From contig QKHT01000212.1 of the NCBI GenBank assembly GCA_003249935.1, positions 1 to 64,000 of the forward strand: DNA of 64,000 nt, given 5' to 3'. Shown one piece after another: positions 1,981 through 3,677 of the stretch. The notes beneath the pieces are model-generated. The model was not told the DNA's origin, searched no databases, and saw only the letters and a list, made by a program, of their open reading frames with translations. This DNA is from Bacteroidota bacterium (GTDB lineage: Bacteria > Bacteroidota > Bacteroidia > Bacteroidales > UBA5342). The first letter of the stretch is position 1. Every line of letters starts with the position of its first letter. A program made the position numbers and the translations under genes.

Positions 1981-2019
1981 ATTTTAATTTTTAAAATTTA
2001 TATCGTGTTGAAAATAAAA

Positions 2020-2046
2020 AAGGCCTACCGCAGTGTGGTAGACCTT
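2020..2046 (-). terminator. his attenuator terminator hairpin
   Basis: In the minus-strand transcript a 10-bp stem (arms 2046-2037 and 2029-2020, one G-U pair) closes a 7-base loop and is followed at once by a run of T (2019-2016, then TTTT again). This is an intrinsic terminator lying between the leader peptide and hisG. Its 5' arm and loop can instead pair with 2082-2068, see the neighbouring regulatory entry. Confidence 0.9.
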
Positions 2047-2082
2047 ATCAATATTATAGATACATCAGTCTCAGCCCACTGC
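2037..2082 (-). promoter_or_regulatory. his antiterminator (alternative pairing of leader RNA)
   Basis: The segment 2082-2068 of the leader RNA (GCAGTGGGCTGAGAC) is complementary, with gaps, to the terminator's 5' arm plus loop (GTCTACCACACTGC, 2043-2030): GCAGTG pairs with CACTGC and the GAGAC end with GTCT. The two structures exclude each other. The antiterminator strand begins on the G of the leader stop codon, so a ribosome that finishes the peptide covers it and lets the terminator form, whereas a ribosome stalled at the His codons 20-30 bases upstream leaves it free. The pairing is read by eye; no folding energy was computed. Confidence 0.75.
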
Positions 2083-2126
2083 TATTGCAGGTTGTTATGG
2101 TGGCCGATATGATGAAATGTGTTCAT
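2082..2126 (-). CDS. hisL: his leader peptide (14 aa, four His codons)
   Basis: A 15-codon reading frame on the minus strand encodes MNTFHHIGHHNNLQ and a TAG stop. Four of fourteen residues are His, in two adjacent pairs (CAT CAT, CAC CAT) split by Ile-Gly. It sits 14-20 bases downstream of a lineage-type promoter and directly upstream of mutually exclusive antiterminator and terminator stems and hisG. This is the classic arrangement of a ribosome-mediated his attenuator: lack of charged tRNA-His stalls the ribosome and allows read-through. The peptide itself need have no function. The sequence is unrelated to the seven-His run of the enterobacterial HisL, so the symbol is given by role. Confidence 0.88.
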   Translation of the reverse strand: MNTFHHIGHHNNLQ

Positions 2127-2147
2127 TACTTCGTTTTTAATTCGCTG

Positions 2148-2178
2148 CAAAAATATATGATTTAAATCAATATGCAAA
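2148..2178 (-). promoter_or_regulatory. Promoter of the his operon
   Basis: On the minus strand a -33 TTTG (2178-2175) is separated by 19 bases from a -7 TATTTTTG (2155-2148), a full match to the Bacteroidota consensus TTTG/TAnnTTTG. The transcript would start near 2141, about 15 bases before the leader peptide ATG. Confidence 0.8.
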
Positions 2179-2387: not shown

Positions 2388-3677
2388 ATGTACAGAGCAA
2401 TAATTGAAAAGCTTAAGGAATGGAAAGAAAGTAGTATTCGAAAGCCGCTTATTCTGCGTGGCGCTCGTCAGGTTGGAAAAACGTGGCTGTTAAAGCATTT
2501 TGGAAGAGATTATTACAAGAATACTGTCTACATCAATTTTGAGGATTCCCCCAATTTAAAAACCCTCTTTTCACAAGATTTTAGTATCGATCGTATTATA
2601 AAAGTCTTGGAGATTCATTCACAAACAAAAATTTCAGTTTCGGATACTCTAATTATTTTCGATGAAATTCAGGAAGCAGAAAAAGGGGTCACTGTTTTGA
2701 AATATTTCTCGGAACACGATACTTTGTATCATGTCGCAGCAGCCGGGTCACTTTTGGGAATCTCATTTCATCAACATATTTCATTCCCTGTTGGGAAAGT
2801 GGATTTTTTAGATTTGTATCCTATGTCATTTTATGAATTTCTGATGGCGGCAGGTGAAAATAATTTAGTTGAACTCATTCAGCAAGAAGAATGGGAAACA
2901 TTGACTATTTTTCGGGATAAAATTTTGGATTATTTGCGAGAGTACTATTTCGTTGGCGGAATGCCCGAAGTTGTAGAAACATATTGTATTACAAAAGATT
3001 TTGTAAAAGTACGGCAAATACAAAACAGACTATTACTAAGCTACGAAGGCGATTTTTCGAAACATGCACCTTATGAAATAGTCCCAAGAATACGGATGGT
3101 TTGGCAGAGTATTCCTAAGCAATTAGCGAAAGAGAATAAGAAATTTATTTATGGTGTTGTGAGAGAAGGTTCCAGAGCAAAGGATTTTGAACTTGCCATT
3201 CAGTGGCTCACTGATTGTGGTTTACTGGTTAAGTGCCACCATATCTCCAAACCTGAAATGCCTTTAGTTGCATTTAGCGACTTGTCGTCTTTTAAACTCT
3301 ACCTCCATGATGTAGGGTTGTTGGTTGCTATGGCCGGCATTGATATTAAATCCATCATTAAAGGAAATAGTCTGTTTACTCAATTCAATGGTGCCATATC
3401 TGAACAATATGTTATTCAGCAACTCATATTAAAGTCCGATAGATACATTGGTTATTGGACCAATGACCGTAATACTGCCGAGGTTGATTTTGTCATTCAG
3501 GATAATGGTCGAATAATACCCATTGAAGTTAAATCGGGTGAAAATCTCAAATCAAAAAGCTTTAAATTGTTTTGTCAAAAATACATGCCCGAAGTCGCCC
3601 TCCGAAGTAGTTTAAGCGATTATAAGCAGGAGGAATGGATGACAAATATACCACTGTGGTGCATCGGGAATGTTTAA
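2388..3677 (+). CDS. AAA ATPase with DUF4143 domain
   Basis: This 429-residue protein belongs to the AAA_14/DUF4143 ATPases, which are abundant and often horizontally moved in Bacteroidota, and whose cellular role is not established. The Walker A motif GARQVGKT is at residues 25-32 and the Walker B stretch LIIFDEIQ at 88-95. The C-terminal DUF4143 part carries AEVDFV (E365, D367) and PIEVKSG (E380, K382), the spacing of a PD-(D/E)XK nuclease-like fold, so it may once have been, or still be, a nuclease module. The gene is monocistronic, flanked by the his promoter and ftsY, and is preceded by unusual repeats at 2281-2380. The AT-rich, low-GC codon use differs from the rimO/ftsY neighbours and suggests acquisition. 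Confidence 0.85.
   Translation: MYRAIIEKLKEWKESSIRKPLILRGARQVGKTWLLKHFGRDYYKNTVYINFEDSPNLKTLFSQDFSIDRIIKVLEIHSQTKISVSDTLIIFDEIQEAEKGVTVLKYFSEHDTLYHVAAAGSLLGISFHQHISFPVGKVDFLDLYPMSFYEFLMAAGENNLVELIQQEEWETLTIFRDKILDYLREYYFVGGMPEVVETYCITKDFVKVRQIQNRLLLSYEGDFSKHAPYEIVPRIRMVWQSIPKQLAKENKKFIYGVVREGSRAKDFELAIQWLTDCGLLVKCHHISKPEMPLVAFSDLSSFKLYLHDVGLLVAMAGIDIKSIIKGNSLFTQFNGAISEQYVIQQLILKSDRYIGYWTNDRNTAEVDFVIQDNGRIIPIEVKSGENLKSKSFKLFCQKYMPEVALRSSLSDYKQEEWMTNIPLWCIGNV

Follow-up and report, generated by a model that had tools for sequence, protein, structure and literature searches.

A predicted ribosome-mediated attenuator upstream of hisG in a Bacteroidota genome, and its counterparts across the phylum

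The short region upstream of hisG in this Bacteroidota genome raises the question of how the his operon behind it is regulated, and whether a ribosome translating a small leader frame decides if RNA polymerase reads on. The window analysed here (a stretch of 64,000 nucleotides) carries hisG and a hisD-like frame on its minus strand, preceded by the features collected in Table 1. This arrangement is very probably a ribosome-mediated transcription attenuator of the his operon, a reading that draws on the anatomy of the locus, on folding and on comparison with related hisG loci.

Anatomy of the leader region

The hisG gene is the sole copy in the genome and matches PF01634 at 164.5 bits over cut-off. 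An earlier, sequence-only reading of the window had described, upstream of it, a promoter of the TTTG/TAnnTTTG type and a 14-residue frame with four His codons in two pairs. The promoter motif is present as an exact match, and the frame translates as MNTFHHIGHHNNLQ, with only four His codons, not all consecutive. The terminator placed at 2020-2046 is likewise found as a stem, with six T residues at its end, and the antiterminator pairing given as 2068-2082 with 2030-2043 is the same as that listed in Table 1; its strand does begin on the leader stop codon, at the last base. The gene at 2388-3677 on the plus strand is divergent from the hisG side, which leaves the leader transcript as the only one that a minus-strand terminator lying behind the promoter and ahead of hisG could end.

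Table 1. Positions of the leader elements in the window and of further leaders in the same genome
Feature	Position	Strand	Basis
Promoter-like TTTG-N19-TAnnTTTG, Bacteroidota type	2178-2148	-	exact match
Leader frame MNTFHHIGHHNNLQ, 14 codons, ATG to TAG	2126-2082	-	translation
Four leader His codons in two pairs	2114-2109 and 2102-2097	-	translation
Leader stop TAG	2084-2082	-	translation
Protector hairpin, His codons with antiterminator strand	2114-2063	-	minimum-energy fold
Antiterminator strand, first base is last base of leader stop codon	2082-2067	-	folding
Shared strand, terminator 5' arm plus loop; antiterminator partner	2044-2030	-	folding
Intrinsic terminator, stem 2046-2037 / 2029-2020, U tract 2021-2016	2046-2016	-	folding
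hisG, ATP phosphoribosyltransferase, 283 aa	1980-1129	-	PF01634
hisD-like frame, runs off contig end	1070-1	-	hisD-like sequence read by eye
ilvD leader with terminator (L205)	G000:C12 1344-1179	-	
Tandem pheA leader modules (L207)	G000:C51 5731-5446	-	

Folding and the position of the ribosome

The terminator (2046-2020) folds at -14.2 kcal/mol (z=-4.5; equalled by 0 of 300 shuffles), and the alternative antiterminator hairpin, spanning 2084-2029, at -17.2 kcal/mol (z=-2.8; equalled by 4 of 300). A third helix, absent from the features listed by the sequence-only reading, pairs the His codons with the antiterminator strand and has a z of -1.8 for 2114-2064 (equalled by 16 of 300 shuffles).

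Folding supports the proposal that these structures switch with the position of the ribosome. With ribosome edges set approximately, the RNA without a ribosome forms the protector hairpin together with the terminator (-31.7 kcal/mol), a ribosome at the stop codon leaves the terminator as the main helix (-14.8 kcal/mol), and a ribosome stalled at the first His codon makes the antiterminator the minimum (-22.0 kcal/mol). Folding with the leader blocked, the check that had been suggested, does yield the antiterminator. An edge set at the fourth His codon leaves the terminator (-18.8 kcal/mol) as the minimum of the full-length RNA. As long as the 3' arm of the terminator is not yet made, the antiterminator (-17.2 kcal/mol) forms from both stall positions tested; since a stall at the fourth His codon favours the terminator at equilibrium, switching there would need the order of events during transcription. 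At the window locus alone, the pairing of the antiterminator strand with the terminator arm is not significant against dinucleotide shuffles (p=0.12), and neither is the preference for its own arm in an arm-swap test (rank 0.32), so that the case for this locus rests on the alternative hairpin and on the relatives described below.

The predicted sequence of events is as follows. When charged His-tRNA is ample, the leading ribosome would reach the leader stop codon and cover the antiterminator strand, the terminator would form, and transcription would end before hisG. Under a shortage of charged His-tRNA, a stall would be expected at the His codons, above all at the first pair, opening the protector hairpin and freeing 2082-2067 to pair with 2044-2030; should this happen while the 3' arm of the terminator is still being made, RNA polymerase would read into hisG-hisD. 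A leader left untranslated would keep both the protector hairpin and the terminator, an off state.

Related leaders and competing explanations

A His-rich frame occurs upstream of hisG in 127 of 191 Bacteroidota loci, a sample unweighted by phylogeny and holding one duplicate or more (L008 and L071 both stand for a single Dysgonomonas contig), with the first ATG of each frame assumed to be the true start; eight hisG regions in which the hisG start motif was not found were left out. A terminator lies before hisG in 113 of the 127, a count from a scan that overlooked at least two visible terminators (L068, L069). Of 113 leader loci, 76 have TAnnTTTG no more than 90 nt ahead of the leader ATG, where shuffles predict 8.9. 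The background is low. Both strands of the window contain 8 short frames with at least three His including an HH pair, and the hisG leader is the only one with at least four His. Flanking DNA from relatives (274 kb, both strands) contains 22 such His frames, and a terminator-like hairpin comes after 1 of these. Scaled to the regions examined, the background amounts to about 3 frames and about 0.15 frames with a hairpin, the filters for background and hisG-upstream DNA differing slightly.

The distribution is broad. Among order- and family-level relatives, 23 of 29 hisG loci are preceded by a small frame, opened by ATG, in which His codons cluster; one of the two family-level relatives with hisG (G001, L004) has no recognisable leader. 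About half of the 80 loci from named genomes (including Bacteroides, Parabacteroides, Phocaeicola, Paraprevotella, Dysgonomonas, Carboxylicivirga, Sunxiuqinia and Maribellus) have a His-rich frame upstream of hisG, most of the Prevotellaceae and Paludibacter loci fetched among these 80 have none, and genomes related at the class and phylum level have it also. The sequence-only reading had made its proposal depend on conservation in related hisG leaders, and both the His-codon frame and paired stems do recur across the phylum.

The alternative stems can be followed between lineages. Tested against dinucleotide shuffles, 62 of 113 loci show pairing at p<=0.05 between the terminator 5' arm and the segment that separates the His run from the terminator (about 6 expected), 25 of them at p<=0.01, and the equivalent of the protector, the His-codon segment with a downstream segment, reaches p<=0.05 in 36 of 113 (again about 6 expected). 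Terminator arms differ in sequence class from lineage to lineage, and every class is accompanied by a strand close to the leader stop that fits it: GGCUUGCC with GGUAGGC in Bacteroidales, CCGUUUGA with CUCAAGCG in f63 (one large class-level family), and CCCCGGC with GCCGGGU in f74 (a phylum-level family). Strands pair worse when given the arms of other classes. The strand's own arm ranks in the top tenth at 40 of 113 loci (binomial p=3e-13, an optimistic value, as related loci are not independent) and at or below 0.05 at 24 of 113, a significant but modest result because GC-rich arms pair promiscuously. Because the arms differ between lineages as entire blocks, one common alignment for a covariance model would have no meaning. 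A strand located within the leader frame sets the final residues of the peptide, SQA or PQA in f63 and AG in f74; the likeness of leaders at their C-termini probably reflects RNA pairing.

Several relatives depart from this plan. Five loci (L023, L025, L062, L070 and L091, three of the five in Carboxylicivirga) have two complete modules of His leader and terminator in series before hisG, an arrangement for which we know of no earlier his case. Outside his, Salmonella mgtCBR is a known case of attenuators in tandem (PMC3641672). In four f60 loci (L157, L158, L159, L160) a single long hairpin (z -2.6 to -4.7) encloses the His-rich frame and there is no separate terminator; a U-rich stretch follows 3' in at least three of the four genomes. 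Five loci (L175, L176, L180 and L187 of f81, L182 of f100) have His-rich frames before hisG and no terminator hairpin; the last 200 nt ahead of the gene are rich in C (0.23-0.33) and poor in G (0.11-0.17), which, speculatively, might suit Rho-dependent control. Three f67 loci (L116, L117, L119) have long His-rich leaders ending HHFHHSS, then a hairpin without a U tract before hisG. L034 and L082 keep the terminator behind a frame that is poor in His codons or lacks them (MEYIKVCYHHSLGE in L082), and could be decaying attenuators.

Other leaders in the window's genome were sought gene by gene. The ilvD gene is preceded by an Ile/Leu/Val-rich leader, MSSFILHILVVVVVIMIAQ, and a terminator, and pheA by two modules in a row, the Phe/Tyr-rich leaders MNIASNYFFYFFFFYFSTK and MTANSLHSSFYFGFFFYFMNIHEVR with a terminator apiece (Table 1). 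At the end of the second pheA leader, GAGGTGAGA is complementary, with one G-U pair, to the 5' arm of its terminator, and TAnnTTTG stands about 30 nt upstream of the ATG of the ilvD leader and of the first pheA leader. Two homoserine dehydrogenase genes and trpE show no convincing leader upstream. Given the ilvD and pheA leaders with their terminators, attenuation looks like a general habit of this organism.

The attributes of an attenuator can now be set against the window locus. There is a predicted leader with four His codons, conserved before hisG; a terminator with six U residues, between the leader and hisG; and a predicted exclusive antiterminator, indicated by the fold switch and by pairing and co-variation across loci (the single-locus p remaining 0.12). 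A ribosome-mediated attenuator is favoured because the anatomy is exact, the fold switches with ribosome position and recurrence before hisG far exceeds that in control DNA; because antiterminator pairing across loci is joined by lineage-specific co-variation of strand and arm; because the divergent upstream gene leaves the terminator no other transcript; because ilvD and pheA have matching leaders with terminators in the same genome; and because a hisG 5' element and leader-peptide attenuation have been inferred from Flavobacterium transcriptome data (PMC9723704). Speaking against it are the single-locus pairing and arm-swap results, the low number of His codons and their interruption, the terminator favoured by a fourth-codon stall, and the family-level relative whose hisG has no recognisable leader.

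It is highly improbable that the terminator answers to a T-box, a riboswitch or an RNA-binding protein rather than to a translating ribosome, the leader frame being incidental. T-boxes or the HisR repressor govern his genes in other phyla (PMC9413887), but a search of Rfam 15 at gathering score finds no family in the window or in 20 related loci, so no T-box family in the leader and no T-box or riboswitch in the relatives, and it is the His codons that form the most constant feature while the RNA sequence changes between lineages. Equally improbable is that the leader acts through its peptide, the nascent chain arresting the ribosome in response to something else, for instance a metal or an antibiotic. 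Nascent-peptide arrest is known in other leaders, and these leader peptides are rich in His; against this, the peptide sequence flanking the His runs lacks conservation from lineage to lineage, its C-terminal end is governed by base pairing and not by a peptide motif, and the codon content fits what the operon makes, here as before ilvD and pheA. Least likely of all is a functionless His-rich frame lying by chance beside an ordinary terminator, since, common as short frames are and for all that the single-locus pairing falls short of significance, recurrence before hisG is far above background, the terminator has no other use next to a divergent gene, and antiterminator strands co-vary with their arms.

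Relation to known attenuators

As a predicted ribosome-mediated attenuator, the window element would work like the enterobacterial his attenuator, but it is outside the RF00514 (His_leader) family. RF00514 has no match at E<=10 in 1981-2230, none at gathering score in the 20 related loci and none in the window's genome, while it is detected in E. coli. A sub-threshold RF00514 match in one relative (G002, L202) was discarded, being a terminator-like hairpin on a different contig from that genome's hisG. The best match at E<=10 is to Thr_leader, below threshold (20.7 bits against 55), and was taken as a generic attenuator shape and not as membership. The Bacteroid-trp motif (RF01692), a cis-regulatory RNA of Bacteroidetes named for trp genes (PMC2864571), matches neither the window nor its genome, and a control search finds it in Bacteroides ihuae.

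The sequence-only reading had suggested that the element would be convergent or an unnoticed lineage-specific class. Its separateness agrees with the RF00514 searches, but the class was not wholly unnoticed: a 2021 transcriptome study of Flavobacterium psychrophilum gives strong indications that amino-acid operons there are preceded by leader-peptide attenuators, and names a structured 5' element of hisG that is conserved in Flavobacteriaceae and matches nothing in Rfam (PMC9723704). Short frames have been noted in long 5' UTRs of B. thetaiotaomicron (PMC7366714), and a 2021 study of his genes in the superphylum, in its accessible part, mentions attenuation for enterobacteria only (PMC8305728). 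The Bacteroidota his class has been glimpsed before, and the accessible literature yielded no phylum-wide description. The abstract of Vitreschak et al. 2004 (FEMS Microbiol Lett 234:357) reportedly names candidate attenuators in Bacteroidetes/Chlorobi. What is new here is the phylum-wide conservation, the antiterminator strands inside the last leader codons, and the tandem and hairpin-enclosed variants.

We give an even chance to the broader proposal that Bacteroidota share an old, phylum-wide class of his attenuator that is distinct from that of the enterobacteria and not represented in Rfam, and in which the last leader codons and stop often serve as the antiterminator strand, modules sometimes come in tandem, and some lineages have a leader-enclosing hairpin instead of a terminator. 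Bacteroidota translation usually starts without Shine-Dalgarno pairing. If the phylum-wide class is real, transcription and translation would be coupled closely enough for attenuation in such a phylum, and the leaders would offer a conserved, easily assayed read-out of that coupling. The loci supply material for the missing Rfam family, and a putative regulatory logic can be assigned to the his operons of gut genera (Bacteroides, Parabacteroides, Phocaeicola) and to ilvD and pheA in the window's genome.

The enterobacterial hisL has a His-rich leader, a protector hairpin, an antiterminator and a terminator. The window element shares with it (RF00514) a His-codon-rich frame and the same three structures before a his operon (PMC9413887), whereas hisL has one long His run and the window leader two His pairs. 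With the Flavobacterium psychrophilum element it shares the phylum, the gene, the lack of an Rfam match and attenuation inferred before amino-acid operons (PMC9723704); that element belongs to Flavobacteriaceae, and the accessible part of its description spells out neither the leader peptide before hisG nor alternative stems. Its arms would be of a different sequence class should the f63 family represent its relatives. His attenuators are also described in the Bacillus cereus group, Peptostreptococcaceae and Erysipelotrichales, where they were found after RF00514 gave no match (PMC9413887); these Firmicutes systems have in common with the window a His-rich leader, a terminator, an antiterminator and no RF00514 match, but they belong to another phylum and to small groups of species.
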